Source: Bryoerythrophyllum caledonicum (lineage: Eukaryota > Streptophyta > Bryopsida > Pottiales > Pottiaceae). From it: a stretch of DNA of 64,000 nucleotides. Shown one piece after another: positions 10,300-60,085 of this stretch; within the stretch, counting starts at the first letter, position 1; each line of letters begins with the position of its first letter. The stretch is from NCBI GenBank assembly GCA_963971425.1, contig OZ020525.1, forward strand, positions 10,546,187-10,610,186. Direction: 5' to 3'. Below the pieces are notes generated by a model, which was given only the letters and a program-made list of their open reading frames with translations, searched no databases and was not told the DNA's origin. Both the position numbers and the translations under genes were made by a program.

Positions 10300-10328
10300 T
10301 ACCCTAAACCCTAAACCCTAAACCCTAA
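10300..10328 (-). repeat. Interstitial telomere-type repeat
   Basis: Just under four units of CCCTAAA. Similar short tracts on the plus strand occur at 12630-12645, 15531-15558, 23078-23095 and 23215-23260. These are internal telo-box-like tracts, not a chromosome end. Confidence 0.85.
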
Positions 10329-35370: not shown

Positions 35371-37523
35371 TGTGGCGGGGCTCTCCAGTTTCTGTAGCAA
35401 ATTGTTGGGATCCGTTGGTTACTTAATGATGTGCTGGGGCAGGGAGTGTTTAGCAGCAGGTGTTTTAATAGCACATAAGCTAAATACTAGTTTCTGAATG
35501 GGGAGACAAATGCGTTGCACATGTACATAATTTGATTACTGACACTGGGAAGCTTCAGAAAGGATCCAGAAGTGTGAAATTTGAGATTTCATTTCGTTGA
35601 GAATGGTGTTATTAGTCATTGATTGGTAAGTAGTTCCATTCTCAAGTGGCAACGTACTCTAATTTATCCGAAACCTCTTTCTTCGTGATCAGTAATCATC
35701 TATTTGGCTGAGCTTCATGTGCACTATGTAATTGGTTAGTTCCCACTTAAGTGTTTGGTCAAATGGAACTCAGTTGAGGAAAACGTGACACAAAGGTAGG
35801 ACATCACACAATACCATGTTATGCCCCAATAACCCGTGGAGCTCGCTATCCTTGTGCGTTTTTTTGACATTTTCACCAATTTTGCGTGTTGACCCTTCAA
35901 GACTGAAGTAAGGTTTTTGTTAAACTTTCATTTCTAGCGCAATCAATTTCGAATGGTTGAATTTGTGGGACATCTCCAACTATACATATAACTTGTCTAC
36001 ACTTATTATTTCAATTACTGCAAGTTCTACACTTATTATTTCAATTATTGCAAGTGAGACTAATTGATATTAATAAGCTATGACTTTCTTTGCAACATGA
36101 ATTTTTTTACCCACAATGTGTGGTGGTCTTCCTACATGAATAGTATCAATATTTTTTGCTCATGGTGAAAATATACATCTTGCATAAAATGTTTTAGTCT
36201 TGAATAAATAGTTGGTGTGTCTTGCAATGTTGGCAATAATCAATGTATTGTGGCTTGTGTTTTTGAGCACATTACTTCTATTTTTACTTATACTTTGGTT
36301 TATACTTGCACCTATCCATAACTTCTATGATGCAAAGAATGGCATCAAACACTCTAAATTTTATTTTTCCATAATTTAAATATATTTTTGGAAAAAAGTC
36401 ATTGAAAAATCTTTTACTACCAAATTAGATGTTTTAGGCCTAAAATCTACAACTCTCACATAAGGACTTCTTTGAAGCTTATAATATCTCTTGTTTTTCC
36501 TTGTGTTTTTCCAAGTAAAGAAAGTTTAGGAATGCTTTCCGTAGTTGGAGTTACCTTTGTAGTTTGAATATATTTGTCGTTAACATCTTGATCTTTGAAC
36601 CACAGTTTGAGAGTGTTCCTCGTCAAGAAGACTAATGTAGCAGAGATTGGACAATTACGTAGAATTCTACCAATTCTTGTTGTGGACAATATCTGTCTCG
36701 CAAATCTCTAGGATTCAAAAACTTTGCTTCAAAAAACTTAGTTAGTATGATGAGGCACAAAAGAAAGATCATAAGAATTTGACTAATTTGAACATGCATT
36801 CTAGTTTAAGTCCAGTGGTTACAATAGCTCAAGAACTCAACGGTCCGTTGCGAAGGGAGGAATGTGTATATATTTCATTGAACCAATCTTGTATACAAAT
36901 GTGGACTTGGTATACAGAATCAGACCAAAACTGTGATCTTTTGTGCACTTGGAGCATCCAGAAGCGAAGGTGCTTCTTGGAGAATGCTATTCTGTGAGCG
37001 GTGAGCGGTGAGCTGTGAGCGGTGAGTGGTGAGCAGTGAGCAGAAAAAAAAAGAATTTTTGCAGTATATTGTTCGGATTTATAAAAAATTTAGCGATTCA
37101 TGAGTAATAAGAGTGCCTATGATCGTGAATTGTTATTCACTAGGGAAAAATAGAACTTATAAACAGAGGATGAATTTAAGTATAAAAGTAATGAACTTGG
37201 TTTTAGGATTTAAGAAGTTATCCTATGACCGTAGACCATGATTACTAGGGTATAAGTAAAACAACATGAGTAATTAGAAAAATTGTGAGTATTTTTCAAG
37301 AAATGAAATAACTGGATAACTGTGGAAATTTGGCATCAGCAGAGGCCTATATCCGTGTGAATTTGAGAGTGGAAGAACCGGTATAATTATGAACGATATG
37401 TATTAGTGCAGTGAGTATCTATGGGGAATGGGAGTGGTATAGCCTCCGTAGACAATTTGCACTAATATCCATGAAAGCAATATGAATTGGCTTGTTCATG
37501 CATACGTTTAATTGTATGACTCT
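35371..37523. other. Intergenic DNA, no gene seen
   Basis: Downstream of the PPR gene. A 27-bp direct repeat occurs at 35998-36055 (CTACACTTATTATTTCAATT twice). A heptamer array GTGAGCG of about seven units lies at 36994-37042. Minus-strand frame 36456-36689 is open but unrecognised. Confidence 0.5.
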
Positions 37524-37805
37524 TTAACCCCTAAAGGACCACGACCACTTTCGCTCTAAAACCAGTCCAAAACTGCCACTGCCAAAAAGAGACATGAAGA
37601 TCACATTTTCAAGTAAATTTCGGATTTTCAACCATACGATCTTAAAACAAACTTCTATATAATATGCCGTAAAATTTTGGTTCCAATCCACCGTACGGAT
37701 TGATAGACTTTAGTGTTTAAAGTCAAAACAATGGTTCATTTTCTTCCCTGCGTTGAGTAGATCAGCAGACTTTGACTTCACTTTGTATCAAATTTTTGCA
37801 TTGTA

Positions 37806-38752
37806 CAGTAGGGTGACATTCAAATTGGTGTGTGGGCAATTCCAGGGATGGTGTCCCACACTGCTGCCAACTTTGACGCCCTCCACAGGGCTGAAAAATT
37901 GTTCTTTTACCCTGAACTTTTGGGAACAACATCACCTCTATGTTAAAAACATGCATACCAAATTTCAAGTCCAGAGAACTTATAAAACAAAAGATATTAA
38001 AAATTAACCACCATGGGGTAGCTGTGAGAAAAGTTTCTCAACCGCCAACTTTGACACCATCCCAAGGATTGAGGAAATTTTTTTTGCCCATGGAATTTTT
38101 GGAGTGAGAACACCTTTATGTTGATTACATGTGTGGAAATTTTCAAGTCCAAAAAATGCACAAAAAAAATCACATCCCAAATCTACCAACATGTGTAATT
38201 GTGAGAAAAAAAGGGAAAAACCATTTTACTACTTCCAACTTTGACACCCTCCCTAGGATTGAGGGTTTGTTATTTCAACATGAAATTTTTGACACATGGT
38301 AACCTTTATGTTGATAACATGTGGGAAAATTTTCAAGGCCAAAAAATGTATTCAAAAGAAGATATTCAAAATCTACTAACATGGGGGTTAGTTGTGAAAA
38401 AAGTTTCACAGCTGCCCACTTTGACACCCTCCCAAGAATTCAAAAAAATTTATTTGTCCATGAAATTTTGGGTATGAAGTCACCTTCACGTCAAATACAA
38501 GTGTGGAAAATTTTAAAATCCAAAAGATTTACACAAAAAAACATATACCAAGTCTACCAACATGTATTGTTGTGACAAACAAAGGGGAAAGTTTACCACT
38601 ACTTCCAACTTCAACACCCTTCCTAGGATTGAGTTTTTGTTGATACATAATGAAATTTTGGCCACAAGATCATCTCTATATTGGTAACATATGAGATAGA
38701 TTTCAAAGCCAAAAGATGTATATACAAAAAAAAATTATTCCATATCTACCAA
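37806..38752 (+). repeat. Left long terminal inverted repeat of the Tc1/mariner element
   Basis: Made largely of five diverged monomers of about 180-195 bp. Each carries CCAACTTTGACACCCTCC, then a CATGAAATTTT segment, TTTATGTTGATAACATG and CAAAATCTACCAACATG-type blocks. Monomer starts are near 37866, 38046, 38235, 38410 and 38606. Confidence 0.85.
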
Positions 38753-39753
38753 CGTGTATGTCCTCCATTAGCATCAATCACCGCTTGTAACCTTGAGGGC
38801 ATAGAATGACATAGTTGAAGGAGCTTTGTACCACTAACCAAATTCCACTCTTTTTCAAGAACTACCTTCATCACTTCTAAGTTTCTAGGGCATTCCTTGC
38901 CATGTTGCACAACATCTTTTAGCATCCTCCAGACATTCTCGATTGGATTGAGATCGGGAGAGTTTGCAGGCCAATCGAGCTTTTCGAGTTGGTGGGTTTG
39001 TCTCCATTCTTCACATGTTTTGCTGCGATGAACAGGTGCACCATCTTCCATTAGCACTCCTTCTGGAAGTCTACTCAAGAAATGAATCAATTCGCCATCG
39101 TAGACCACTTCAACAAAATCTTTAGCAGAACGTTGAGTTTTTGGCATAAAGACAAGTTGTGACTTTTGTCCTCCAGCAAATGCACCCCAAATCATCAAAG
39201 ATGTCCGTCCACTTTTAAAAGTAGGAACTATACAACTTGATGAATAACGCTCATATGCACTTCTCCAAACATGAATTTGCCGAGAACTTTTTCCAATCTC
39301 AAAAGTAGATTCATCTGTCCAAACAATACGCTCTGACTCTTTTGGACTCCATCCATGGTACTTCTGAGCAAAAGCTAACCGTTGAGACATGTGATGGGAT
39401 GTCAAGAAAGGTTTTTTGACTGCAATTCGACTAAAAATACCACTTTTATGTAATACCCTTTGAATAGTACGTCTACACACTTGAGTACGGCACATATTAG
39501 TAATCTCTGAGACCGAGGAACGACGATGAGTTTTTGCATAACGCACAATATTATTCACATCTCTCTCACTAAGTTTTTTAGCGTGACTTCCACCGCAAGG
39601 TTTGCGCTTATAAGTTCCATCTTCTTTAAACGTTTTTACTAACCTCTGAACTGTTCTAACAAAAACTCCAGTAATGGCTGCAATTTGAACTCCTGTATTT
39701 CCTCCCTCACTCAAACCTATAATGCGAGCATGGATTTCATCTAAAATTGCCAT
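38746..39753 (-). CDS. DD34E transposase, Tc1/mariner superfamily
   Basis: An uninterrupted frame of 335 codons. The N-terminal half has two helix-turn-helix segments (about residues 10-45, VQIAAITGVFVRTVQRLVK; and about 60-105). The catalytic core has D147 in VWTDEST, D237 in LMEDGAP and E272 in NSPDLNPIENVW; 34 residues separate the second Asp and the Glu, so it is DD34E. All three catalytic residues are present and there are no stops. The stop codon lies just within the left inverted repeat. The enzyme should bind the terminal repeats and cut-and-paste the element into TA sites. It lies in the only apparently complete DNA transposon in the window. Confidence 0.93.
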   Translation of the reverse strand: MAILDEIHARIIGLSEGGNTGVQIAAITGVFVRTVQRLVKTFKEDGTYKRKPCGGSHAKKLSERDVNNIVRYAKTHRRSSVSEITNMCRTQVCRRTIQRVLHKSGIFSRIAVKKPFLTSHHMSQRLAFAQKYHGWSPKESERIVWTDESTFEIGKSSRQIHVWRSAYERYSSSCIVPTFKSGRTSLMIWGAFAGGQKSQLVFMPKTQRSAKDFVEVVYDGELIHFLSRLPEGVLMEDGAPVHRSKTCEEWRQTHQLEKLDWPANSPDLNPIENVWRMLKDVVQHGKECPRNLEVMKVVLEKEWNLVSGTKLLQLCHSMPSRLQAVIDANGGHTRW

Positions 39754-39919
39754 TATAGACTATTTTTTATGATGTTGATACAATACTAAATGCTCTTCAA
39801 TAAGTAATCAATATAACACTCAACCTATGGCAATTGGATTATATAATTCAGTAAACACAAAGGACTCAGCTTATGGCATGTGTACTAAATAAATCAATCA
39901 ACAACATAACACTCACATT

Positions 39920-40006
39920 GGCATGTGCATTAGGTGATAACCATGGCATGTGCATTAGATGATAACCATGGCATGTGCATTAGATGATAACCATGGCATG
40001 TGCATC
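39920..40006 (+). repeat. Tandem 25-bp repeat inside the Tc1/mariner element
   Basis: GGCATGTGCATTAGATGATA plus ACCAT repeats 3.5 times (starts at 39920, 39945, 39970, 39995), upstream of the transposase start. An 18-bp duplication (AATACCATCTCAACATTCAC) follows at 40190-40233. Confidence 0.85.
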
Positions 40007-40531
40007 AATTGAGTGAACCAAAAAATACTCTTGGACATACTCATGCCACATGTGATTCGTCAATACTCAGTAAACTAGTCAACAACACTCAAAAAAAATA
40101 AAAATATATCCACTCAATGGATCAGCCCATATGTGATTTGTCTACTCAATCAGTCAACAACACTCAGCCCATATCTAATATGTCCACTCAATACCATCTC
40201 AACATTCACTCTCAATACCATCTCAACATTCACTCTATTACAAATCACATGACAAAATACACACAACATTTCCTTTACATAGTGCTCAACAGATATTTGG
40301 AGGAGAAAACTCGTCATACGTGCATAATGCACACCAAACCTTATGACAAGTGGATTCTTCTACACAAAACAACTCTGCAATTCTACATGTAGATTTCATT
40401 GATCTTTTCAAGATGCATTTATGTTTGGTAGCTTAGTCACATGAATAAAATCAATGAAGAGTACGAGGTGTCAAAGATAATTTGACATTCTCAATATGCC
40501 CCTTCAATATAGTTTCTCATTGTTACAAACA

Positions 40532-41478
40532 TTGGTAGATATGGAATAATTTTTTTTTGTACATACATCTTTTGGCTTTGAAATCTATCTCATATGTTAC
40601 CAATATAGAGATGATCTTGTGGCCAAAATTTCATTATGTATCAACAAAAACTCAATCCTAGGAAGGGTGTTGAAGTTGGAAGTAGTGGTAAACTTTCCCC
40701 TTTGTTTGTCACAACAATACATGTTGGTAGACTTGGTATATGTTTTTTTGTGTAAATCTTTTGGATTTTAAAATTTTCCACACTTGTATTTGACGTGAAG
40801 GTGACTTCATACCCAAAATTTCATGGACAAATAAATTTTTTTGAATTCTTGGGAGGGTGTCAAAGTGGGCAGCTGTGAAACTTTTTTCACAACTAACCCC
40901 CATGTTAGTAGATTTTGAATATCTTCTTTTGAATACATTTTTTGGCCTTGAAAATTTTCCCACATGTTATCAACATAAAGGTTACCATGTATCAAAAATT
41001 TCATGTTGAAATAACAAACCCTCAATCCTAGGGAGGGTGTCAAAGTTGGAAGTAGTAAAATGGTTTTTCCCTTTTTTTCTCACAATTACACATGTTGGTA
41101 GATTTGGGATGTGATTTTTTTTGTGCATTTTTTGGACTTGAAAATTTCCACACATGTAATCAACATAAAGGTGTTCTCACTCCAAAAATTCCATGGGCAA
41201 AAAAAATTTCCTCAATCCTTGGGATGGTGTCAAAGTTGGCGGTTGAGAAACTTTTCTCACAGCTACCCCATGGTGGTTAATTTTTAATATCTTTTGTTTT
41301 ATAAGTTCTCTGGACTTGAAATTTGGTATGCATGTTTTTAACATAGAGGTGATGTTGTTCCCAAAATTTCAGGGTAAAAGAACAATTTTTCAGCCCTGTG
41401 GAGGGCGTCAAAGTTGGCAGCAGTGTGGGACACCATCCCTGGAATTGCCCAAACGCCAATTTGAATGTCACCCTACTG
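40532..41478 (-). repeat. Right long terminal inverted repeat of the Tc1/mariner element
   Basis: Reverse-complement copy of 37806-38752, with the same five-monomer structure. Small differences include GGCGTTTGGGC in place of GGTGTGTGGGC near the outer end. Confidence 0.88.
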
Positions 41479-42135
41479 TACAAGGTCTAAATCTTTTACC
41501 ATTGTCTTAAGCATGATGTTATTTCCCACCTCACCAGTTTTTAGAGGTAAAAAAGGGGTGTAGCAAATTCAAAACAAGTGTGCAAGGAGTGGAGGTCCAG
41601 AAATTGCCATTCCACGTTTTATTTTATTGTGAACTAGGTATGTATTCGAATGATAATCCAAATGGTCAATAAGAAGGTTTTCACCACATATAGTTATTGA
41701 AAAATCAAAAAGTGAAAAATATGAAGATCTCTAGGTTTTATGTAGAAAAGATGAATGTTTCTTTCCCCCGTTGCCCGACAATGTGTGAAAATGTTTGACT
41801 TGTAATAACATGCCTTTTTACACTAAAGACAAGATTTTTTTTGGAAATTTAGGAAGAAGGAAATATTCTTTATATGTGTGAAAAATCTCAATGTCAATAG
41901 AAACTTTTGTCAAATTTTTTGGAGGTGCCCGGAGACCCCACTTTTGGCTTTCAGTGGTACTAACTTTCAAACCACAAATCCAAAAAATAAAATAAAAATA
42001 TCTCCAAGAAGCTCTTATCAGAGGCTATCTTGTGAAAAAATTTCAATTAAAAAGGATTTTTTTTCGAATTGTAGGTACATGCCCAAAATCTAATTTGACC
42101 CTGGAGGGACGTTTGGTCCTTAGGGGTTAATTATA

Positions 42136-42262
42136 TTTGAAAATCGTAGCAAAAATCGTACCTACAATTCGAAAATGAAATCGTACCTACAATTCGAAAT
42201 TTGTTTGAAAATCGTACCTACAATTCGAAAACTGTTTGAAAATCGTACCTACAATTTTGTTA
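42136..42262 (+). repeat. Tandem repeat flanking the piggyBac-like element
   Basis: Four units containing AATCGTACCTACAATTCGAA in 24-34-bp steps. A reverse-complement copy (TTCGAATTGTAGGTACATG) lies just inside the element's right end at 42063-42081. Confidence 0.8.
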
Positions 42263-42265
42263 ATG

Positions 42266-45200
42266 AAATATTTTTTGCCGTTACCTCTGTTATGCAAAAA
42301 TGCTTTATTCCTTAATGAAGAAGAAAATAGTAAATGAAAGTTTAAATATATGTGGAAGAAATGCTCACCAGTGGAGGCATTCCAATCAAGAACAATGTCC
42401 TCAATTGAAGTAAGTGATTCAATCATTGACTTCAAGAAATCATCGAATTTCTCTCGAGGGCCCCGCCAAGGTGATTCTCCACCCAAATGCTGAGTTGAAG
42501 CATTTACCGGATTGAATAATATGTCAAGCTCCCCCAATGGAGCGCTAACACGGAATCCCGAGACATCAATAGTATCTCGTACAAATAATTGGACTCAAAA
42601 GCGCGTGCTCTGAAGCAAAGTACAATTATGTTTAGTGTAAATCTTCCAAAAATTCATGATATTGATACTGTATACATCAACAATAGCAAATAAATTTTAT
42701 ATAATCAAAAGATATAATTACCATGGCAGATTAATCCCGAGGTAAAGCAAGAGGGAGCTCATTTAAAGCCCACCAATCATTTAGTCACTTCAAATCGTAT
42801 GCACATTCTTCAATCTCCAAATTGCAAATCTCGGTCGTTGGTATGAAACAGAAGCAATGTTGCATTGTCATGGAGATAATTGTCGGCAAACTCAAAGATT
42901 GTATCAATATACTTCTCCGGCTTCACATTCCACGGAGGAATGGCCGAATTAGGATCAGAGATCCCTAGAACGGGTAAATTCTCTGGAATGTCGGCAATTA
43001 TAAGATCCAATCCAAAGTGCTTGTAAGTTTCACTTGAAACTTGTCGTGATCAATCTGCTCCAACTTGGAAAGCAATTGAGTTAAGAAATTAGAAATAATG
43101 TTTTATATTAATTTCAACAAACAAAAGTGATAAAAATAATTCATACCTTTGATACGAATTCATGAAGACGAGCCCAAGGCTAAGGTGGACCACCGGGCTG
43201 AGAAAGAGATTGCATGAGGGAAAATAGAGAGAAATTTAGAATTAAGGACTCTCAAGAGACAACCTGAATTGGTGCAACGGATGACTCTGATTGTTGAAAT
43301 TGACGTTGTTTGCATTGGTGAACATCCATGCGTGTAACTTCAATAAGACTAGATCCTGCAGCTTGAGAAGATGCCATGACTGGCGATGAATTCCAAGCAA
43401 ATTCATTATCTCTGGTCACATCTGTTTGGTTTGGTTGCACAAAGACATTGACAGTTGCCCTTGATGCAAGGGCAGTAGCTACAGCCTCCTCAATCTCAGC
43501 CTTCTTAGCCGCCTCTGTCTTCTAAGCCACTTCAATCTCCAACTTTGCCTTCTCAGCCTTGGTCAAGCGCTTCTTTTTGTTTGAAGTCTTATCCTGGACA
43601 ACTATTGGCAACAGAGATGACTGCTCGTGTTCTAAATCCTCGCCCTCACGATTAGTTGAAACATTGGAGTATGTGGAACCACAAAGACTGCTGTAAAGCT
43701 CTAACTCCTCGTCTGGAATGAAGTTAGAGCTACATTCAAGGTACCATCCACCACCCTGTAGAAGAGGGACGAAGTATTTCTTTTGCTGAATATTTGTGAA
43801 AATACATAGATTCGAAGAATATTGAATCCATGGAGATAGGAAAGCAGGGCATGAGACAACTCCAAGTGCATTTTTAGGCATCAATTCCCTGATAATGTAC
43901 CTAAATGAACATAGTACAACATGATAAGAAATGAGTGAATGAATTAGAAATGTTTAAAGAGGCACAAATTGAAGAAATTACATGAAAAATACTTGTAGAA
44001 TAGACGCTTGATGAGAAGGTCACCTTTCAGTAAATCATCGAAGTTTGATCCCTTCAGAAATGGTGGCTTAACACTTGGATGGACAATATGCATGAATGCC
44101 TTCTCCCACAAAATCATACGCCATTTCTCAATATAGTCCGACGGACGCATAATCCCCTGAGAGGCGTTCTAGTCCACAGTGAATGCGCCCGACTTACAAA
44201 GATTCTTGAATTCAACTATGAAGCTATCTTCAAGCTGCATATTGTAAACAAATATTAGTAAACAATGATAAATATATGATCAGAAAATAACAACAAATGA
44301 ATAATTGAATCATCTGTGCCTAAAATGATGCATGATTCAGAAATAAGTCAAGTGTGCTGTCTTTGAAACGTGCACTTGGAAACTGATAGACAGATTGAAT
44401 AAAAGCTGGAGAATTCCACTGATGCAACTACCTTGCTTTGAAAAGTGGCCCAACATTAGAAGTTGTAACCTTCTGCAACCTCTCGATTGTCATTTCAGTT
44501 GTTTTGAATTGACTGAAATGATTGTTGATCTACAAGAAGAAAATTCTAATGATTATGATGAAAAAAAATCAACAAAAGAATTATCAAATTGTCTAAACAA
44601 TCATTGAAAAGAAAGTAAGATAATAAGGGGAAAAATACATCTTCAAAAAATCCTTTTTCGTGCTTTGGATTTGCAACAGAAAGATATTTGTGAAAATCTT
44701 TGTTTTTATGGATTTCACCATCGATGCTTCAGCAACATTCATAACTCTCCACACACCTTCTGCTGTTCTCTCCTCTACAGGCGTGGTTCTTTCGTATTCG
44801 ATGGCGGCTTCGTCAGCAACTCGAGCCAGGTCTTGCTGCAATAACAATATTGTTTAAGACATATAAATTTGATATTTTCATATTGTTATTTATTCTTTGA
44901 ACAAAAAATTTAAATTCATAAATGATACAAAAATTCAAGATACATCTTCAGAAAGCACTTACCCGATATAAAAAGGATATGAATACATCAATAGTCAAAG
45001 AATACCAAGCTGCACGCGACTGTCTAACTTTCACACAAGACTTGAATTCTGTGGAGGTCAGAAGTTCCTTGAAGTCTTCAAGCTTGAGAGACCCATAATA
45101 TTGAATGTGTTGCAACCTTGCAGGGAGACTGACCTTTACATGGTTATTTTGAGTTGACCTGCATATTTACAATCAAATATGTCAATCCAAAGTTAGAGAT

Positions 45201-47771
45201 AATAGAAGATAATTAATAATCAAGCTATCAATGGAAAAACAAATATGGGTCCAGATGGTAATTACTAATACCAATTTACATCGTGCATACAATTAAGCAG
45301 AACCGAGATCTGCCCTTTCGGATTGAGCACAACACTAGAAACCGAGTAATGCCAGGATTTGTCATTGGGGTGAACTTCATTAATATAGCGCCACCATGCA
45401 TTACATCTGTGGTTTCCATTCCACACAAAAAACATTTTTCCTTTGAAATGTGCATACTCTAGATTCGAACCCAAAAACTCCTCAAATTTCACATTGGCAA
45501 ATTGCAAATGAGAATTCCACCTTGCCTTGATCTCAGGAGACACATCACGGATTAACTCTGCATCGTCAAACAAAGAAATTTAAAAAGAACGATCACCGTC
45601 AATGTATCCGCCTTCAAATCGCTTTTGAAGGACGCATACATCGACCTCCTACACAGGACGAACACGTGGCAATGGAACCATCCTGCAAAGAGGTACGTAA
45701 AAGGGGCCTTTGGTGACGCGCATATTTTCAAGGACAATCACAAAATTTGATTTCTGGTGAAGTTGCCGTGCCCTCTCTCCATCTTGAACATTGACCAAAC
45801 CACTTGGGCATTTTTATTCTGATCTAATTTTATTGACTTAAGATTTGTATTCTAATTTATAGTAACTTGTTCAAATACCTATGGTTATGTGTATCATATG
45901 CCTTATCATTCTTAAAAGTATGTGCATTGTTATTCAGATTAATGCGAAAGTTTCTTCACAGGTCAACACAACTCAAGACGACAAGGAAGGCCCTCTCAAC
46001 CCAGAAATTTAGGTTTGTTAATCATTTGTTTTAAACGTAAAATCTTAAGTCAATAATGACGTCATTGTTGATTTCATTAAAGCCATTGTCGAATTCATTA
46101 AAGCCATTGTCAACAAAGACTACATTAGATCAGAATAAAAATTTAAGCATAGCCTCTTTGAACAAGCCTTTGTCCACAGAGGCTATTCACCTACTTCTTA
46201 ATTGTCAGCTTTCAATTAGTTTAATGAATCACAATTGAGCAAAAAGAGTATCTTTGTCCACGAAGCCTTCTCACAACATTCAAATGTTCAAAAGCAACAA
46301 TAGTTTGACAGCATCACAAGAGACTTCGTCCACAAAGCTTTCATTCATAAATTCACACTCCAAACAAGAATTCATATTTGGACAATGAAACCACATTAAA
46401 TCAAACAAAAACAAGCTTTCCAATCCATCACATGTTGAATTTAAGAGTTCAACCATACCATAGGTTGAGATGATCCCTCAATAATGCCAATATCGCCAAC
46501 ATCTGTGGTACCTACTCCTCTTGGTATGCTCAGCCACATGCACACAACAATTTAGAATCCACGGTCGTAGAAGTTCTCACCTCACAAGGGCATAACATCA
46601 AAAGTTGCAAATATAAATGAGGCTTTGTCAACGAAGTCTCATTGGACATGCATGACAGCTCATGCCCATGTTCCAGCACAAAAACATGCTTCGTTGACAA
46701 AGCTTCATGGCTCAAACTCTGGTGGTACTAGAAGAACATTATGATGTACTCAAAGAACATGCTTCGTTGACGAAGCATAACAATTTGCCTCAAACATGCT
46801 TCGTTGACGAAGCTTCATACTCAAACTTGTTGTTGATTCATACACAAAATTTTCAAACTTGTTGCTGATAAATTTCCATACTTACTGCTGTTCGTTCATA
46901 AAATTCAGAGATCTTCATGTGTCGTACGAACATGATTTGTTATGACGTCGTTCATAAAATCATTCTTTCATTATTTTTTAAAACATATCATTACTGCGAT
47001 TTTATGAACGACGTCGCAGAAAAAACGATTTATGCCAAGCATGATTTTTTATGACAAGAATGCTGCAGTGATGTGCTACAAATCATTAGATGCCAAACCT
47101 GCGTGTTGAGTTCGAACTGAAATTTGGATTTCACTGGGCTCAAGTCATCTGAGAATCTGGTAAAACAAGTGCACAGATGCTCACCTTGTCGCCTGAGAAG
47201 GAGTCAATGGTTGCCGCTAAAGGAGATGAGCACGCCATATCGTCCAATTCAGCAACAATTCCTCCTCTAAATATGACCTACCACACCAACACAACAAATT
47301 AGATTTAAAGGAAACAATCAAAAATTTCCACTCACTAAAAAGGTTTTGTTAGATTACGAAGCCAAAGCCTGACGATCACAAAGCCTAAGGTTTATGATCC
47401 ATGAAGTTAAGTCACACGAAGCCAAAGTTCTGGACCGTTAAAGACGTAAGTTCCTGGAGTTCTCGACGTCCAAAGAAGAGGGTGAGAAACAGGCTTCGTC
47501 GACGAAGCCTTAGTTGACAGCTCGAATTAGTTGTCACTTCAGAAGATAGTATGTGCTCTCAAGCTAAAAAGAACTCTGACACCTCATGATGCGCGTCCAC
47601 GTCGAGGATGTGGACCCACTCTTCCCAAATAGGTGCAAGGTCAGCGCGCAACTTAAGCACGTATCTGGAGACACTACCAAAATAAGGCATCCTGGAAATG
47701 TCTAAATCCTAGCGTCCTGGAGATGCTGCCGCAGATCCTGTAAATGCTGCCGCAATTGGTGGCACGTTCAT
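42266..47771 (-). pseudogene. ParB-like plus DNA/RNA methyltransferase-like gene, decayed
   Basis: Minus-strand coding blocks occur in order. 47771-47583: MNVPPIAAAF, later YVLKLRADLAPIWEEWVHIL. 47270-47187: AELDDMACSSPLAATIDSFS. 45723-45275: VPLPRVRPV, then VWNGNHRCNAWWRYI, like the DGNHR core of ParB/Srx-type domains. 45160-44970, 44840-44640 and 44540-43950: helical blocks without a name. 43880-43250: Lys/Glu-rich linker (KKKRLTKAEKAKLEIEVA). 43010-42730: LIIADIPENLPV (motif IV, DPP[W/Y] expected) and DWWALNELPLALP. 42537-42370: WRGPREKFDDFLKSMIE, then VLDWNASTG (motif I). Motif IV before motif I is the beta-class methyltransferase order. At least five in-frame stops and several shifts break it, and the last exon is missing. 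Introns appear GT-AG. The function of this fusion is not known to me. Confidence 0.6.
46165..47509. repeat. Cluster of GCTTCGTTGACGAAGC palindromes
   Basis: Eight or more near-palindromic 16-18-mers of the type GCTTCGTTGACGAAGC lie at about 46168, 46253, 46324, 46621, 46688, 46761, 46798 and 47492 (the last, GGCTTCGTCGACGAAGCC, is perfect). A 17-bp inverted pair (ACGTCGTTCATAAAATC, 46954-46970 and 47000-47016) lies among them. The cluster occupies the gap between two coding blocks of the ParB/methyltransferase relic. Confidence 0.75.
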
Positions 47772-47777
47772 GAGTTC

Positions 47778-47950
47778 TGTTAGATTAGGAGAGAGATCGA
47801 TAGAAAGTAATGTATTCTATATATTAATAAAGTTGTTATACATATATATATGACCCTTGTTTATAGAGTCACGACTCTTCTATCAAGAGTCACACCTCTT
47901 TGTTTAATTGATGTACTAACTATACACAATATTTATACGTATGTCTAACA
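47778..47950 (-). repeat. 3' LTR of the copia element
   Basis: 173 bp with TG...CA ends. The purine tract AGTGGGAG (minus strand, 47951-47958) abuts it. Confidence 0.93.
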
Positions 47951-48088
47951 CTCCCACTAGTATACTAGGTTAAAGCTTCATCTGTTTGGATGAACATTAT
48001 ATCATCCTAAACGGTCTTCTTCTGTAACGTAGGGTTTGGAGTGTCGTTGCATTGCAGTCTTGTGGCTGCGCCTATGATGCCTGTGCCT

Positions 48089-48169
48089 GCGGCGATTGTG
48101 CCTGCGTCGCCTCTTGCGGCGATTGTGCCTGCATCGCTTCTTGCGGTGACTGTACCTACGTCGCCTCCT
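48089..48169 (+). repeat. 27-bp GC-rich tandem repeat in copia 3' region
   Basis: Three units of GCGGCGATTGTGCCTGCGTC plus GCCTCTT lie between the pol end and the 3' LTR. Both strands stay open across the array and give repetitive Cys/Asp or Arg/His peptides; these are by-products of the 27-bp period rather than evidence of a gene. Confidence 0.8.
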
Positions 48170-48799
48170 GCAGTGGCGGTGGCCTTTTCTGCTTCGCAGC
48201 TTGTGGTAGTGGCGGTGGGTCTTGCAAGGTCCGTGCGGAAACGAGCGGCGGCGGCTAGGCACTACGTTTGAGTCCGCTGATGCAGGTTAGAGGAGGCGGA
48301 AGTTGAAGGAGGACTGCCGGCGTTGGTGCTGAGGCAAAGTCGACGCTGGTTGAGTAGAGCTGCAGCTGATTGGATGGAGCATGTGAACGAACAGCGAAGA
48401 TGGAGACTAGCGAGAAGATGAAGCAATCCAAAAACAGCTCGATGTCGATAGTGGAGGTTGTGGACTCCTCGCCCAAGGACCAGTTCACGTGGGCGCAGAT
48501 CATGCACGATTTGTAGTACTTCGACTTCTCGCCGAAGGGGCTTAACTTCAGTCCGCGGTTAGACTCTTCCAGCAACTTCCAGAGCCTGAGCGCCATATTA
48601 ACTTTGCTTGAGTTCATTCCTTGTATTGTTGTGTTGTGATTTTGCTTGGTTGTTTTGGCTTGAGAGGTCTTTGAAATGTCACTTATGTGTGTAGAATAGA
48701 GGTAATTTCTCCCACTCAAAGATTGCTCAAGAGATAGAAAACTCCCACTGAAGTTGAGAGGTCTAAAAACCAAAAATGCTTGGCTTGGAGAACTTTTTT

Positions 48800-51700
48800 G
48801 TGTAGTGGGAATTAAACACATGCCAAGTTTATTTATATAATAGAGATGCTTATCTCGTGGTAATGCCTTGGTGAGGATATCAGTTGTCATTTCAGCTGTA
48901 GATATAAATAGAAGTTTAATTTTTTGGATTAAGACTTTTTCACGTGTTAAAATGATATTGGGTGTCAATATGCTTGGAACGTGAATGATACTTTGGATTG
49001 GCTGTTAAAGCAAGAGCGCTTTGGCTATCTGAATAAATAGGTGTAGGATCAGATTGGGGAAACCCAAGTTCTTGTAATAATTTTCTTAACCAAATGGCTT
49101 CAGCTGTAGCTTTAGCTAATGCCATATGCTCTGATTTGGTGGAAGAAAGAGCAATAGATTGTTATTTCTTGCTCCCCCAAGAGATAACACCGTTGGCTAA
49201 GAGAAAACAATAACCAGAGGTGGATCTTCTTGTGTCTTTGCAGCCAGCCCAATCAACACTATAATATCCATGGATGCCCCCTTGTGAGGAACGTTTGTAG
49301 CAGATTCCATAAGGTAAAGTGCCTTTCACATATTGCAAAGTTCTTTTAAGAGTTTGAATATGGGTTTCAGCTGGAGTACTTAGGTATTGTGCCAAACTAC
49401 TGATTGTATGAGCGCAATCTGGTCGAGTATTGACAATGGCATGCATTAGGCTGCTAACTATTTAAGAATAAAAGTGTTGGTCTTCTTGGGATACAAAAGA
49501 GTCTTCTTTGCTTAATCGAATCTCGGATTCCATTGGGGTGCTAATAGAGTTGCAGTCTAACATATTGTATTCCGTGAGTTTGGAAAAAAGGTATTTTCGC
49601 TGATGAATAAAAGTCCAACCTTCAGATTTATTTCTTATGATGGCATTGCCAAGGGTGAAGTGTAATTCACCTTCATCTGACATGTCAAATTCTTGCTGTG
49701 ATAGAGTTTTGATGTTGAGAATGAAAGTGAGCTGATTACTCACTAATATACAATCATCAACATAAACGTAAGTATGAGAAAAGTATTGTTAACTTTTCTT
49801 TGGATGTATATACTAGCATCAGATTCTAATCTGTGGAATTTGTGGAAAGTAAGGTATTGGTCTAAACGTTGATACGAAGCACGGGAGGATTGTTTTAAGC
49901 CATATAAAGATTTGCAAAGTTTGCAAATCAGGTCTGAATTTGAAGGTAATGAGAAACCTTCAGGAATTGTCATATAAATGTCTTCCTCAATATATCCATT
50001 TAAGAATGCAGTCTTAACATCCAATTGGTGGATTTCCAAATCATATTGAGTGGCAAGTGCCAATAAAACTTAAATTGAGTTAGTTTTAACCACAGGAGAA
50101 AATGTCTCCATGTAGTCAATGCCTTGTATTTGAGTGAAGCCACGGGCCACTAAACGAGCTTCGTACTTGTCTAAAGTACCATGAGCCTTTGTTTTGACTT
50201 TAAAAAAACCCATTTAGAAGTGATTGGCTCATGATTTGGAGGTAATTTGGTAAGAATCCAAGTTTTGTTTTTCTCCAAAGAATCACTTTCAGCTTAATGG
50301 TTGAATGCCATTGTTGGAAATCTAATCTTGATAATGCTTCTTGGAATGTTTGAGGAAGATCATTTGTATGTGAGACAACATTGGTTTGATGCCTTTTTGG
50401 AGTAGGCTTTTGTTTTGATGCTCGGCCAGCTACGGATTCAAGTAACCTTCGTGTTGGTTTGATTTGCCTTTTAGGTCTTGCTAGGGAACTTGGAGGTGCA
50501 TATTGGGGTTGAAAGTCTGATGTGATGTCATCTCTTTCAGGGCTCGCAGCATCTGAATATGAAGTTGGTGGGGTAGCATATGATGGTCCAAGTGGACTTT
50601 GAATATTTTGAGGTATTGAGGATGCCGGTTGTTGTGGTTGTTGTTGTTGTAATTGAGAAGGTGGAGGCAATATTTGTTTGTTTGGTAATTGACGATAGTG
50701 AGTTTGAATAGTAGGTTGAATTTGAAATATTTTAGGATAGATTAGAATCTCTTGGTCATCATTTATTTGAAAAGAGTGACTTATTGATTTTGCACTTAAA
50801 ACTTCATCAAATATAACATTCCCTGATATTATTAATTTGTGAGTATGTGTGTTTATCAAACGGTAAGCCTTAGTTTCTTTACTATATCCTATAAAGATAG
50901 CTTCAAAAGAATGGGAGTCTAATTTTCTGCATTGTTCTTTGGGTATGAAGACATGTGCTTTACATCCAAAGATTTTGAGATAAGATAAGTTGGGTTGATG
51001 GCCATACCATAACCCAAATGGTGTTGAATTGTTTGATATAGCTTTTGAAAGACTTCTATTTTGGAGATAATTGGCTCTATATAATGTTTCGCCCCAAAAT
51101 ATCTTTGGTAATTTTGCATATGATAACATAGATAGGACGGTTCCTATTAATGTCCTATTTTTGCGTTCTGACACACCATTTTGTTGTGGTGTATAGGCTG
51201 TAGTTATTTCCCCCTTGATGCCATGTACTTGACAGAAATTTTCAAATTCAGTTGAAAGGTATTCATCACCTTGATTTGTTCTTAGGATCTGGATGGTATG
51301 GTAAGTTTGATTTTCAACAAAACTCTTATATTGCTGAAATTTTGTAAATGCTTCTGATTTGTACTTCATTAAGTAAATGGTACAACATCTTGAGAAGTCA
51401 TCAATAAATGTGATGAAATATAGGTATCCTGTATGTGTGGCCACTTGCATAGGTCCACATATATCAGAATGTACCAATTCCAAGATTTTAGTAGCTCTTC
51501 TTGCTCCCTTCTTAGGGAACTTACTTTTGTGTTGTTTGCCGTCTATGCATGATTGGCACAAGCTGATTTTTTTTTCATCAAGAAGTTTAATTTCTTTAGA
51601 CATACTTTGAATTTGCTTAAGTCTCTGCTAATTGATATGACCTAGTCTTAAATGCCATAAATCAGTTGTATTGTGTAATGTAATGGTTGGTATTGCCAAA

Positions 51701-52041
51701 ACATAGTTGTTTGAGATAATAGTCTCACCTAATTCATATAAATCTGGATTTAATTTACATTTAGCTATGATTTGACTCAATTTGTTGATAAAGATAGAAA
51801 TTCCATCTTTGATATGAATTTCACCTCCTGCTTGATCAAGTAGCTTGGCTCAAAATAGATTCTTGGCCAAGCCCGGAATGTGCAAAACATTAGGTATGTT
51901 TTTCTCATCCCCATTAGTCAATTTGATAAGAACATCACCATGTCCTTCAATGGTGTAGGATGTGGAGTCATCCCCTAAATAAACTACTTGGTCGTCTTGA
52001 CACTTGGTATAGTTTGAGAATCCTTCTCGCTGATGACACAT
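48800..52041 (-). pseudogene. pol: copia pol (protease end, integrase, RT, RNase H)
   Basis: Blocks in order on the minus strand: protease remainder (52041-51850, VLHIPGLAKNLF); integrase (51603-50760) with HSDICGP, RTNQGDEYL and PQQNGVSERKNRT; RT (50063-49460) with QLDVKTAFLNG and YGLKQSSRAS; RNase H (49446-48840) with TRRSTSGYCFLL, YSDSQSALAL and MTTDILTKAL. The integrase's second Asp is Asn (normally RSDNGGEY). The RT YVDD box straddles a frameshift near 49760. Several stops separate the blocks. Confidence 0.92.
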
Positions 52042-52044
52042 GTG

Positions 52045-53293
52045 CTAGGTGGCCCCAGAATCCACATACCAAGTGGAATTGATGTGTCCTTGGGTTTTGG
52101 AGGCTACCACATAAAGTTTGTTGTCGGTTGTTGCAAGACTGGTTTGTCTTATATTATTACCTTTTTCTGCAGCAATTCTGGCTCTGCAGTCTTTGATGTG
52201 ATGCCCAGGCTTTTTGCAATAAAACACTTTTTCTCTCTTGCAAGAATCTTCTTCTCAAAAGGTTTGTAGCCACTGCTCTCTCCTTTTGAATCTGAACTTG
52301 TTTTAAAGCTCTTGTTAAAGTAAGGTTTCTTGCTTTTGTTGAAATTCTTCTTTCCAACATAGAGTGCTGATTTGTTTTGAGAAGTAGGACTTGTATCTTT
52401 GATAAATGTCTCTTCTTGAATCAAATTAGTGATTAATGTTTGCAAAGTGAGCCCAATTTGCCTTGGCAAGGAGCGAATGAAGGGTTGATAATTTTGAGGG
52501 AGACTCCTCATTAACATAATTACAGCTTCATCATCTGGTATAGGTGATCCAGCTCCTTGTAATTGCTCAAGATGAGCTCTGAAGTTATGAATATGTTTGA
52601 CAATATTTGTATTGTCTTGCATTTTTAAATTAATTAATCTATCATTTAAATGCATTTTTGTTACTATGTCTTGAGATTCAAAAATGCTTATTAATCCTGA
52701 CCAAGCTAAATGTGATGTGGTGCAGGATTGAATGTGGGAGACTATTGAATTTTCAAGGCAGTTATTGATGATGGTTAATGCTAATGTATCTTGGTCCTCC
52801 CACATGCTTATGCTTCCTGCACCTGTTTGAGGCAAAGCAGGAGTTCCAACAGCTATTTCTGCTTCTGTCACAGCCATTGGTAAGTATTCAGTTCCACTAA
52901 CTATAGGCCATAGTTTTTTTGTTTTAAAAATTAGAGTTAATCTATGTTTCCAAGTATTAAAATATGAGCCATTAATTTTTGTGACATGGCTGATGTCTAC
53001 TTTATGTGTTGACATTTCTAATATTCTCCTCTTAAAATTGCTTGAATTTCACATTCTTCAATAAAATCATTAGAAATGAGTTCTAGATTTTCTTCATTGA
53101 AGTTTGTGAATGTTTCAATGTATGTTGCAGAGGTGTTGCAAATGTCAAATGTATTTTGCCCATATTCAAATGGTTGTTCTTGCTCTTGAATTGGAAATGG
53201 ATCTGATGGTACTTGTATTAATGCATTATTCAAGTTTCTATTAACAAATTGAAGTTCAATTTGAATTTCAGCTCTTTCAAGCTCAAAAGTCAA
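52045..53293 (-). pseudogene. gag: copia gag and start of protease
   Basis: The main gag frame starts at 53015 (MSTHKVDISHVTKINGSYFN, then WKHRLTLIFKTKKLW), the capsid-like UBN2 type. A further frame upstream to 53293 is open. The nucleocapsid zinc knuckle lies at about 52185-52225, but a 1-nt deletion splits it: one frame gives KCFIAKS, the other FYCKKPGHHIKDC. The second frame continues to the protease active site WYVDSGAT at about 52045, then a stop. Confidence 0.85.
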
Positions 53294-53403
53294 TGGATCT
53301 AAAACATCTTCGCCTACATTTTCCTGTAGCAGGATTTTCGAGATAACACATTGTGCTATTACATGTTATGATAGCATATCTTTATGCCAACTATGTTTAC
53401 ATT

Positions 53404-53415
53404 GCTCTGATACCA
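53404..53415 (-). promoter_or_regulatory. Primer-binding site (initiator Met tRNA)
   Basis: Minus strand TGGTATCAGAGC immediately follows the 5' LTR. This is the standard plant copia primer site, complementary to the 3' end of tRNA-iMet. Confidence 0.93.
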
Positions 53416-53588
53416 TGTTAGATTAGGAGAGAGATCGATAGAAAGTAATGTATTCTATATGTTAATAAAGTTGTCATACATATATATATGACCCTTGTTC
53501 ACAGAGTCGCGACTCTTCTATCAAGAGTCACACCTCTTTGTTTAACTAGTGTATTAACTATACACAGTATTTATACGTATGTCTAACA
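53416..53588 (-). repeat. 5' LTR of the copia element
   Basis: 173 bp, the same length as the other LTR, with about ten substitutions between them. All that I counted are transitions. Confidence 0.93.
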
Positions 53589-56495: not shown

Positions 56496-59400
56496 ATGGC
56501 CTTCATTCATGCTGATTTGCATTCTGTGCCAGTTACATTTCCATTGGGTGAAGATGGTCATGCCATGGTCACTTCCACAACTCTAGGTCTGAGGTTTCAA
56601 TTTTGTGAAGAGTCTGTCTTTGTGGAAGAAGAGGTTTTTGACATTACAATGGGACAAGTCTCGCATGCTATGGGTCAGTTGTCGAGTAGGAACGATGTGG
56701 GGACATTCTTGTTGCTTAAACCCGGAAGTATCAGGCATACGGAGTCTCTGAGTCAGTTTCAGCAGCTTCCACTGAACTCCTTACTCCTCGGGAGTCTTCC
56801 ACTCTTAGCATTAAGACCCCAGTGCTTTCCAAAGTCAAAGTAGAGCTAGGTCTTGAGACCATCTATGAGCTTAGTGAAAACTTGGATAGTGAAGACGTCC
56901 AGGGTTCACTGTTAGAACCAAAGTGCAGAGAGCAGAGGGCGCTATCTCCGCAAACTATATGCCAAGAGTCAATTCATCCTATCAGTCCGTCACGTTCCAG
57001 GGAGCCGTCAAAATCTCCACCAATTTTATCAGTCAGCGTAGTACAAACCTTAATGAAACTTAGTGCTCATAAGAGATCAAAAAAGTCTTGTCCAGAATAG
57101 ATTTCAATGCTTTTAAACTACAACAGGTTGAATTTCTGCCGCCTCAATACAATGGAGACATTGTATTTGAATTTCCTCCGTTAGGAGTCTATGGCCAATA
57201 AATTGCAGCCAAGCAGCTTCGTGGCATGGACAAACATTATGATGGCCATGCTTGTTCTCGCACCATCACGTCTAATATTTAGAACAAATTGAAACTTACA
57301 TTTTGTACCTCTTCATGTCTTGGCCACCTCCGTTGTGACAATGTCGACTGTGAGTATCTATCTCCAGACCATAGAACCGCCGGTGTGAATGAGACTGAGT
57401 GGGATGGAATATCTGACAAAGTGTTTGAAGTTGGGTCCAGTCCTCCTACCGGTTCTACACTAGTTTGCAAAACATGTAATGTCCCACCTACATGTATTGC
57501 AGTTTCCTCAACAAAGATATACAATGTGTCCGCAACACCACACATGACGAGAGCATGTGTGCATTTAGGGTCTCACGACCATCCAGTCAAGACTGGTGAT
57601 TACTGTGACTTCATTGAGCAGATCGAGAGCTTGATTGGTGAGCAGGTGAAACGAACTCCATTAGCAATTCGTTCCGCCATTGTGCTTGAAACATCGAAGG
57701 AAGTACTTGGCCCACTCCTTTTGGCTAGGGTAGGTGAAGAACATTAGTCCTTGGAGCTCCTGGAGTTGCTACCAATCTTTGATTGGTGCAAGCATCTAAC
57801 CTCTCCGAGTATTCGTAATTCTGTCTCCACTTTTAGGCATCTGCGACGGTATGGAATCATGGACAACAATACCAAGCTTCGAGGCTCGAGCACCTGAAAC
57901 TTTGTTCAGGAGAATATGTTTCCGAGGCAAGAATCAGATATGGACAAGGTCTTGAAGATGTCCGAGGTCGGGCTAGGCAGCGGAGTTGACTTGGTGAAGC
58001 AAATGCAATCTGGCGGTGACCTTGAGAACGCCTAGATAATGTTTGACTATGTCAAACGTGTCAGATCCTGGACTACCATGACTTGCCACGTGCACGACTC
58101 CACTTATTGTCGGGTCATGACAATTGCAATATGTGACATGCAATCGGAGGACTTTGCAGCCCAATAAGTTGTATGGAAGAATCTGAATGCTGTCATGGCG
58201 CGCCACGGTGTGCATCAAGTCAATTTCAAGGGATTCATGGCCGATAGCGCCCAGGCTAATTGGAATGTTGTTCGCATCATCTACGGAAGTGGAGACACAA
58301 GTGAGAAAATGGTGGATAGAGAAAGGACTTGAATTTTTCACAAGACACAGTCTCTGGAAAAACACACCAAGGTTGACATCCGTTAGGACCTCCTAGCTCA
58401 ACACCAAAAACCGTGCCAACAATACAAGGATGCCAAGTCCATGGAAGAAGTCGATACTAAATATCTTGCAATTTGAGCGTGGTGGATGTCGTCCTGTGCT
58501 GCATCTGAAGAAGGCCTTCCTCGACTGGAGCTTTGGCTTGCCTTCTGGCACTTTCGTTACCGGCTGTGGCATGGCTTCATGCAGCTAGTAATTCCTCTAC
58601 CTTCCTCTACCTATTCTTCATAATCTACTTCACCTCCAATCATTATTTAAATCCTCTGATAATGCTAATTTGACACCATTTTACAACTGCAGGATCTCAC
58701 TCAAGACGAACTTGCAGAAATGCCATCATATAACCTTGCAGAATCGATCCATAACAAGTAAAAACAACAATCCGGCGATCAGGGGAGCGACCTATACGTG
58801 GCAACCGTAGACGACTTTGTTCGTGGCTTCATGTAGAGCGTAGCATATTACCAGTTCCTCAAAGGAGAGCTCCGTGGTACTGGTCTGTCAAAGAAAGAAC
58901 TCAAGTTCAGAACTGCTCAGAGGTTATCGGCTCGAACTGGAAACTCAAAACCACTCCACGAAGCGTTCTTGAAGATGCCTGGCGTTGACGTATTGTGCAC
59001 CAAAATGCCTCACCTTGAAGGGAAAAAGGTATTTGTTTCTCTTAAACGAAAGCCAGATACAACTTTTGGGTTGAATATGAGTCTCACAGGCCTGACAAGA
59101 ATAGCATGTCAAGACCGCGCATCTAAACCAAATCAGTGCTCAATGACAACGACCACAACCTTCCACTTCTTGATTCTCCTACACCTTCTGATCGGGAGGA
59201 GCCACTCCTTGAACCACACCGACCCATTCATCAAATCAATCGCCATCATGTCACTGTTGTAGAGGAGACTGCATGTGACCCTTCCGAATGGCACATGGCA
59301 CGCCTTCCGAAGACATCTGCCAAAGTGTGCTTCGCTCAACAAGCCATCACCAAGAAAAAGTGCGTAGCTCGGATTGTGCGAGACGGGAAGAGCACTGCTG

Positions 59401-60085
59401 CTCCAACCTACACTGGTATGATGGACAACTACAAGAAGAATTCTTCTTCTGCAATGACGACATTGAAAGATGCGTGAAGGGCACTCGTTGAAAGTGGGTG
59501 ATGTCAAGACCAGAAGTCCCAGAGGTATGGCTGGTTAAGTTGGGGACCAATTTATCTCGCAAAGAGATCCTCTCCTTGGAGAATGCAGGCTTTAGACTAC
59601 TCCATCGGAAGGAGATTTGGCCAGCAAGGCTCTTTCAGGACCAACCATTATCTGTGGACTTATCAGCTTACACGACTCTAGCATATCCAGACGATTATCC
59701 CACCAACAGATCAGGGAAAAATATCTGGCGCAACAAAAAGGCCCCGTCCACCAAGCATGCGAACAATTGTGCATCAGCCTTATCATTGAAAGGAAGTGTG
59801 CGCAAGTTATGCATGCTTTCTGCCCCTGCCCTTGGATGCATCATCTCATAGGATTCGGGCGCACCTCCAAAGGTACAACAATATTTTTTGACGATAGCAC
59901 AGCTACCTTCATGCACCTGCCCGAATTTTAAGGAGATGGCGACAAAAGCAATTGGAAAGCGTGGTGAGTGGGCCAACTGTAAGCACCTCTATTATGTATT
60001 TATAGTCATTTGTGGTTTGGATTTAGAGTCCGATACATTGAAGCTAAAACGTGCTCCTGAAGTAGATAATGTTTTTTCCCTCTAA
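56496..60085 (+). pseudogene. Transposase-like gene with SWIM-type zinc finger, decayed copy 1
   Basis: Coding blocks run in order but are broken by stops and shifts: MAFIHADLHSVPVTFP (56496), KVELGLETIYELSEN (56831), CDNVDCEYL with CKTCNVPPTC Cys-rich block (57290-57545), TRACVHLGSHDHPVKTGDY, MTIAICDMQSED (58115), FKGFMADSAQANWNVVRI (58228), WHGFMQ (58570) and CTCPNF...NCKHLYYVF (59910-60000). The last is a SWIM-type CxC...CxH finger, common in MULE transposases. The Asp-bearing core MADSAQANW and the Cys/His blocks suggest a DDE transposase, probably MULE-related, but the family name is tentative. CGA-to-TGA and CAG/TGG-to-TAG stops are frequent. Confidence 0.5.

Follow-up and report, generated by a model that had tools for sequence, protein, structure and literature searches.

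Proteins that combine a ParB-like domain with a DNA methyltransferase domain are a kind of transposon protein already published for algae. In the available passages of one paper (PMC12477816), the element Sola1-1_Ec32 of Ectocarpus encodes such a protein of 1104 amino acids (aa) on the strand opposite the transposase, such proteins are cited for green and red algae too (references 50 and 51 of that paper are Iyer 2011 and Petroll 2025), and the authors remark that the transposon encoding such a protein may be bound and modified by it. Here we describe a decayed gene of this general description on the minus strand of a 64,000-nucleotide stretch of the genome of Bryoerythrophyllum caledonicum (Bryopsida, Pottiaceae; assembly GCA_963971425.1, contig OZ020525.1, positions 10,546,187 to 10,610,186; hereafter the window, C14:10546187-10610186 in our searches), together with its relatives in the same genome, the transposons that carry them and the palindromes found upstream of them. 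The likeness to the Ectocarpus Sola1 protein comprises the two-domain description, a similar size (1104 aa versus at least 1047 aa), an orientation opposite to the transposase and a giant DNA transposon as carrier, with the ParB half being the weaker part of the comparison. The two are likened by description only; here the host is a plant, target duplications are 9 base pairs (bp) long and the element is neither Sola1 nor EnSpm. While the algal passages (PMC12477816) describe no binding sites, the family reported here has palindromes that differ between subfamilies.

Two further systems invite comparison. ParB acting on parS shares with the present system a GNHR-type motif, a similar motif order (judged by eye) and clustered palindromes adjoining the protein gene; it differs in that no significant profile match was found here and in that the present gene resides in a nuclear transposon. 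The VANDAL elements of Arabidopsis are Mutator-like, and the architecture of their VANC protein probably differs from that of the ParB-like/methyltransferase protein. VANC is an anti-silencing protein whose targets lie in noncoding regions, are often arranged as tandem repeats and differ from one related element to another, according to the parts available of PMC5735166 and PMC10398659. Both systems involve an accessory protein of a plant transposon and element-specific motif arrays in noncoding regions (weak here for one subfamily, E), while the palindromes described here are two-armed and the system is known from sequence alone. By analogy, VANC would be the closest working counterpart, ParB on parS the closest structural one and the Ectocarpus Sola1 protein the closest published relative. 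Among the matches listed from the openly licensed literature, which was available in part, the plant-type host, the carrier, the altered catalytic motif and the subfamily-specific palindromes were not found.

Results

The gene in the window (45.8-42.4 kb) is a decayed multi-exon gene within the nested relic of a large DNA transposon. The original prediction, made from the window alone, was of one minus-strand gene at 42266..47771 with an NGNHR block, a Lys/Glu linker and a methyltransferase in which motif IV precedes motif I. All four peptides named in it were found on the minus strand by reading frames and tblastn: NGNHR within the open block 45579-45265, the Lys/Glu linker inside 43899-43147, LIIADIPEN inside 43037-42813 and VLDWNASTG within 42600-42367. 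By tblastn these peptides fall in successive exons from 45723 down to 42367, several of the junctions having GT/AG borders, and the exon with DIPE (motif IV) precedes that with STG (motif I) in the window as well as in the other copies. The predicted extent was right in that the gene lies there and wrong at its upper limit, as placeable exons begin at about 45813 and the relic as a whole is larger (36979 to at least 60040). Stops and frame breaks interrupt the gene throughout, and comparison with the family exons found no match to exons E9 and E10 in the window. The exon relics, placed by family alignment A2 (20 rows of first-block family members) for exon E1 and by comparison with the family exons for E2 to E6, are:

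45274..45813, minus strand, exon E1, the ParB-like block with WNGNHR, two stops
44963..45157, minus strand, exon E2 (NNHVKVSLPARLQHIQYYG)
44644..44835, minus strand, exon E3, with a frame break
44323..44526, minus strand, exon E4, one stop
43992..44234, minus strand, exon E5, one stop
43147..43899, minus strand, exon E6, the central region and Lys/Glu-rich linker, three stops
42819..43064, minus strand, exon E7, the N-terminal half of the methyltransferase with motif IV ADIPEN, one stop, frame broken after 42819
42367..42606, minus strand, exon E8, the C-terminal half of the methyltransferase with motif I VLDWNASTG, one stop

A 31-bp tandem repeat occupies window positions 42152-42256, near the expected position of exon E9.

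Chance does not account for the blocks named in the window, since they are found again elsewhere in this genome (437 Mb and 894 contigs searched). A search with the first block scored 150 places out of 1722 candidates, the window included, with E values from 5e-103 and 99% identity (the window itself) to 2.5e-41 and 49% identity; these places are spread over 13 large and 5 small contigs. A second search, with the motif IV exon of copy C12, returned 151 matches at E<=0.001 (1729 candidates), of which 150 were listed. When the two lists of 150 were compared, 120 of the 150 first-block places had a motif IV place no more than 15 kb downstream on their own strand (114 of these 120 pairs at a spacing of 1.5-4 kb, median 2542 bp); as controls, 0 of 150 had one upstream or on the opposite strand. 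The two blocks are therefore one gene, and they occur as such repeatedly within this genome. For convenience, copies were grouped into subfamilies by first-block identity, with no tree and with many intermediate places left ungrouped: A (about 83-91%, which holds the window), B (80-82%), C (71-73%), D (65%) and E (49-52%).

The original prediction had looked to intact homologues elsewhere in the genome as the mark of a real eukaryotic system, and stop-free copies do exist. Copy C12 yields a ten-exon model without stops, at least 1047 aa long, with a further upstream exon bearing the start probably lying outside the model, and the exon pieces found for copies D9, D1 and E11 are also stop-free. 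Stops were present in the compared pieces of B540 (exon E10), B379 (exon E5), D3 (exon E6), copy E3 (exons E6 and E8), A7 (exons E6 and E7) and A19 (exons E4, E5 and E6). Ratios of nonsynonymous to synonymous substitution rates (dN/dS), given for the first block, the middle and the methyltransferase and calculated without the broken exon E7 of A7, were 0.18, 0.41 and 0.08 for copies E11-E3, 0.26, 0.35 and 0.23 for B540-B379, and 0.13, 0.22 and 0.18 for A19-B379; synonymous sites were saturated in most wider pairs. The pair window-A19, which holds a decayed copy, gave 0.72, 0.74 and 0.37. Two sets of ratios weigh against constraint on a working protein, namely those for A19-A7, both partly broken (0.63, 0.62 and 0.81), and those for the young pairs D9-D1 and D9-D3, which ranged from 0.10 to 1.46 on few changes.

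These data bear on where the gene came from. Plant transposons that carry genes (Pack-MULEs) are mentioned in the passages of PMC12477816 available, and the gene could in principle be an ordinary plant gene picked up as a passenger; we consider such a capture highly improbable, given that the gene is present in copies of five diverged subfamilies, that block spacing is near-constant and that the informative pairs (E11-E3, B540-B379 and A19-B379) all have dN/dS below 0.5. A domesticated host gene, which the original prediction had offered beside a transposon-borne one, is disfavoured by the 150 places on 13 large and 5 small contigs and by the existence of bounded elements, no separate search for a single-copy host homologue having been made. 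A recent bacterial or phage origin was likewise rejected: the gene has introns, and no relative appeared in pattern scans of viral or genome contig collections, which reach only stretches that match a few short peptides. In phage sequences, tblastn with the methyltransferase domain returned 314 records, all below 60% identity and with a best E value of 2e-3 among the matches listed, and tblastn with the first two exons returned 35 records, the best at E 0.3 and none annotated as ParB.

That the gene is transposon-borne is borne out by its many dispersed copies and by the three elements that were read to both ends (copies E11, E3 and C12), which are bounded like transposons and have lengths of 13788, 15021 and 15565 bp (n=3). 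Each is flanked by a 9-bp target duplication, exact in E11 (GGGCACACA twice) and in copy E3 (ATCTTGATG twice) and 8 of 9 alike in C12 (GGTTCGCTG/GGTTCGCGG); these duplications were read by eye from the flanks, the automated k-mer step not having called them, and were then re-located. Terminal inverted repeats reached local scores of 37 in E11, 29 in copy E3 and 45 in C12 versus shuffle maxima of 17, 17 and 18; the repeats are imperfect, the outermost bases of the two ends differ, and about 11 bases of flank contribute to the score of copy E3. Over long pieces, three D copies on three large contigs agree at about 98-99%, and their similarity breaks off at one shared right end; for D9, the left (second) end was not found in the stretch read, including 1.7 kb more. 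Upstream of the accessory gene and divergently oriented lies a two-exon transposase gene, the product of which has a CxC...CxH stretch that is SWIM-finger-like by eye. On balance, the carrier is probably a large Mutator-like DNA transposon family, with the window holding a decayed copy. Against this assignment, three first-exon members of the transposase had no Pfam match at E<=10, the MULE transposase profile included; two second exons matched only VGPC1_C, at 0.07-0.24.

Some elements are mosaics. In the transposase half, A7 and copy E3 have 4.4 kb in common at 96%, and C12 and E11 have 5.1 kb in common at 91.5%; the accessory genes of both pairs are far more diverged than the shared halves. 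Element halves thus seem, from these comparisons, to have been exchanged between copies.

The C-terminal domain of the protein (METHYLTRANSFERASE domain) is, as judged by profile and motif order, a methyltransferase domain of the beta order. The Pfam profile check proposed in the original prediction was passed by a family member, copy C12, which scored 28.0 bits for the whole protein and 30.1 for the domain against N6_N4_Mtase (PF01555; curated cut-off 26.7), the match covering the motif I half of the profile; the window's own pieces gave no N6_N4_Mtase match in Pfam. All five members of alignment A1 (five family rows of this domain) matched the profile at E<=1, the best at 1.9e-7, and a family profile found, among solved structures, DpnA (5hfj, E 2.9e-4), CcrM (0.034), MboIIA (0.51) and RsrI (0.63). 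Likeness to beta-class methyltransferases such as DpnA and CcrM thus comprises the N6_N4_Mtase match, motif IV ahead of motif I and the cofactor-side motifs, the motif I region and GRH..AFE being kept in 5/5 A1 rows. The difference lies in the catalytic motif, where DPPY is replaced by DIPE in 5/5 A1 rows, so that the pattern (D/N/S)PP(Y/F/W) is absent; in sub-threshold alignments, DIPEN stands opposite DPPYN of DpnA and CcrM. Motif I itself reads DWNASTG or DWKASTG versus DPFMGSG in DpnA. Loss of the tyrosine and the first proline of motif IV makes ordinary catalysis unlikely.

Methylation, which the original prediction had put forward as the role of the system, is therefore doubtful, as is catalysis by this domain on the sequence evidence; at the same time, conservation of DIPE across subfamilies favours some function. 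We regard as unlikely, for the same reason, that the protein is a functional methyltransferase (N6-adenine or N4-cytosine) that modifies its own transposon at the palindromes described below or close to them: the N6_N4_Mtase match and the retained cofactor-side motifs speak for such active self-methylation, as does the proposal already made for the Ectocarpus protein (PMC12477816, in the passages available), while DIPE in place of DPPY and the divergent motif I speak against it.

The first block was likened in the original prediction to ParB/Srx folds. Within its G-x-H-R (GNHR) signature, N104, H105 and R106 are invariant in 20/20 A2 rows and G103 is replaced by A in one row, and the order of motifs is ParB-like by eye (VPL..VRP, GY, strand, DGNHR, helix, strand). 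The only PHROG matched at E<=5 was phrog_1033, "ParB-like partition protein", in 5 of 20 A2 members and weakly (best E 0.3). Several searches weigh against the assignment. Pfam ParB_N (PF02195) matched 0/20 A2 members at E<=1 and gave 0 matches in the whole-genome search; other Pfam families, all insignificant, outscored it, namely DUF1015 (9/20, best 0.031), DUF6489 (5/20, best 0.073), LAGLIDADG_1 (3/20, best 0.19) and three more; NCBIfam gave 0 matches for the first block; and a longer read-through piece from the window matched two PHROGs of unknown function (0.073 and 0.11), which weakens the ParB reading. A PDB profile search with the first block returned noise only, and an AlphaFold single-sequence model was unusable (mean predicted local distance difference test score, pLDDT, 35). 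With no significant ParB profile match, the ParB similarity is suggestive only, and a ParB/Srx-type domain is a likely but unproven identity for the first block as judged from its motifs.

Recurrent palindromes are found upstream of the accessory gene. Tandem Repeats Finder (TRF) reported tandem arrays of 80 bp (A7 and A19) and 107 bp (B379), the units of which hold, by eye, a common two-armed core. A scan with CTTCGTNNACGAAG located seven window sites with at most one mismatch, all at 46252-47507, plus a two-mismatch site at 56618. The seven A-type sites, to which no strand is assigned, are:

46252..46265, A-type palindrome site, one mismatch
46324..46337, A-type palindrome site, one mismatch
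46623..46636, A-type palindrome site, one mismatch
46689..46702, A-type palindrome site, one mismatch
46762..46775, A-type palindrome site CTTCGTTGACGAAG, exact
46799..46812, A-type palindrome site CTTCGTTGACGAAG, exact
47494..47507, A-type palindrome site CTTCGTCGACGAAG, exact

Allowing two mismatches, there are 14 sites upstream of the gene in A7, 9 in A19 and 10 in each of two B copies, with scattered two-mismatch sites elsewhere in several copies. In a motif-free scan, the top recurrent near-palindrome was of one kind in 11/11 copies (five subfamilies), with 3-11 copies of it versus a maximum of 2 in 50 simple dimer shuffles each; that of A19 was printed as GCTTTGT, one mismatch away. Exact arms read CTTCGT in A and B, CCTCGT in C, and CTTCGG and TTTCGG in D, and the recurrent D arm GTTTCGG lies mostly inside an 84-bp array that is itself an open frame. 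The A/B, C and D/E arm types never occurred together in 37 stretches (35 distinct loci; seven of 3.7 kb and thirty of 1.5 kb), two of which had no site, namely copy E3 and L017 (mostly gene, at a contig end).

Genome-wide counts covered the A-, B- and C-type palindromes. For the A type (GCTTCGTNNACGAAGC), 64 sites were found (control 1); 50/50 of the sites listed were upstream of one of the 18 A-group genes compared, 48 of them within 5 kb and two at 14.6 and 15.4 kb. The B type (GCTTCGTTGACGAAGGC) had 22 sites (control 0), 22/22 on contigs C379, C540 and C576 and upstream of B genes, a fourth B gene lying at a contig end. The C type (RCCTCGTNNACGAGGY), in which the arms are constant and two central bases vary, had 321 sites (control 9), and 44 of the 50 listed (contigs C1 and C2) lay upstream of a scored first-block place, at a distance of no more than 6 kb. 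Across types, recurrent sites sit inside the element, some 0.5-4.6 kb upstream of the accessory gene; in the copies read they fall between the divergent genes. The element ends carry a different repeat, GTGAGCG.

Several observations limit the view that the palindromes are matched to the accessory protein. Subfamily E is weak, with a top count of 3 versus 2; E11 has no overall palindrome excess (34 versus a shuffle mean of 32.4) and one exact CTTCGG site within 3.7 kb, while copy E3 has none there and one just beyond. No scored gene lies near six of the 50 C-type sites listed. Sites shared within a subfamily reflect descent, and genome-wide exclusivity alone proves nothing; what descent leaves unexplained is that each element has several sites and that the arms stay paired while subfamilies change them. 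Finally, the palindromes could belong to a host factor or to the transposase and be unrelated to the ParB-like protein. Mutator transposases bind sub-terminal sequence, which counts in favour of the transposase as owner; we nevertheless judge ownership by either decidedly unlikely, given that the sites are internal and upstream of the accessory gene, with GTGAGCG at the ends instead, and that C12 and E11 share a transposase half yet differ in their sites (C-type versus a single exact CTTCGG-type site). In this one pair, therefore, sites follow the accessory gene.

Five of the six listed C-type sites without a scored gene nearby form one cluster, C2:28141682-28143143, which is either a relic or an element outside the 150 scored.

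A simpler use of the sites would be autoregulation only, with the palindromes serving as operators of the two divergent promoters and the protein as a repressor or transposition regulator with no anti-silencing role. Palindromes are typical operators, and the recurrent sites do lie between divergent genes in the copies read. On the other hand, up to 14 sites (at most two mismatches) over 1.8 kb exceed the usual need of an operator, A and B sites are partly in 80- and 107-bp tandem arrays, and the size and second domain of the protein stay unexplained; we thus consider autoregulation alone fairly unlikely.

The remainder of the relic, with two nested insertions, comprises the following features:

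36979..37068, plus strand, end of the relic at the lower coordinates, with terminal GGAGAATGCTATTCTG and then direct repeats of the 7-bp unit GTGAGCG (36992-37041); similarity to A7 and A19 ends at 36979
37785..41499, no strand assigned, nested later insertion, Tc1/mariner-like (label by eye), with 971-bp inverted repeats, outside the system
47778..53588, minus strand, nested later insertion, a Copia-type long terminal repeat (LTR) retrotransposon (label by eye; end repeats and reading frames), outside the system
56502..58590, plus strand, first-exon relic of the transposase, divergent from the ParB-like/methyltransferase gene (tblastn with the E11 transposase: 57.5% over 506 aa at 57079-58590; weaker pieces at 56502-57082, 30-42%)
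58690..60040, plus strand, second-exon relic of the transposase (tblastn, three pieces, 47-58% identity)

The Tc1/mariner-like insertion splits the match to A7 and A19 between 37810 and 41474, and the Copia-type insertion has 173-bp direct end repeats that are 94.2% alike. The high-coordinate end of the relic was not found in the window, the best score being 12 and shuffles reaching up to 15.

The inverted repeats of the Tc1/mariner-like insertion are 99% complementary and contain 180-190-bp sub-repeats, and a 337-codon open frame (38749-39759) resembles, by eye, its transposase. A second transposase relic of the same family as that of the carrier, in opposite orientation, lies at 60896-63573, in pieces 27-46% identical to the transposase of E11. 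Elsewhere in the window, a PPR-type (pentatricopeptide repeat) frame of 764 codons (33076-35367) includes a 303-bp tandem duplication at 33790-34475 and ends in what we take to be a DYW-like tail, and short runs of TTTAGGG/CCCTAAA, presumably telomere-like, occur within the contig at window positions 10301, 15532 and 23218. The PPR-type frame and the telomere-like runs both point to a plant nuclear genome.

Discussion

We consider it rather probable that the gene is an accessory gene of the transposon and encodes a self-recognizing protein. The palindromes look like an address label of the element's own, which suggests self-recognition and protection. We infer that the protein would bind the palindromes of its own element and, one step further removed, that it would protect or mark that element. 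In the mechanism we propose, the first block, as a ParB/Srx-type domain, would load the protein on these palindromes, much as ParB loads on parS or VANC on its motif arrays, and the bound protein would shield or mark the element against host silencing or would regulate the two divergent promoters. Because motif IV has lost the usual proline and tyrosine, the methyltransferase domain would probably serve as a binding module that retains its fold and cofactor pocket, not as a standard catalyst. As a specific and tentative reading, somewhat short of probable, this would be a plasmid-like self-recognition system: a ParB-type protein whose methyltransferase fold lacks the canonical catalytic motif would sit on clusters of parS-like palindromes in the noncoding region of its own element, site and protein would diverge together between subfamilies, and each element would shield or mark only itself, as a form of anti-silencing convergent with VANC and built from bacterial-type parts.

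If true, plant transposons would have a second, differently built route to self-recognition. The subfamily palindromes would form matched pairs of protein and site, making DNA specificity directly testable, and whether ParB-methyltransferase proteins from algal transposons have enzymatic activity at all would become testable as well.

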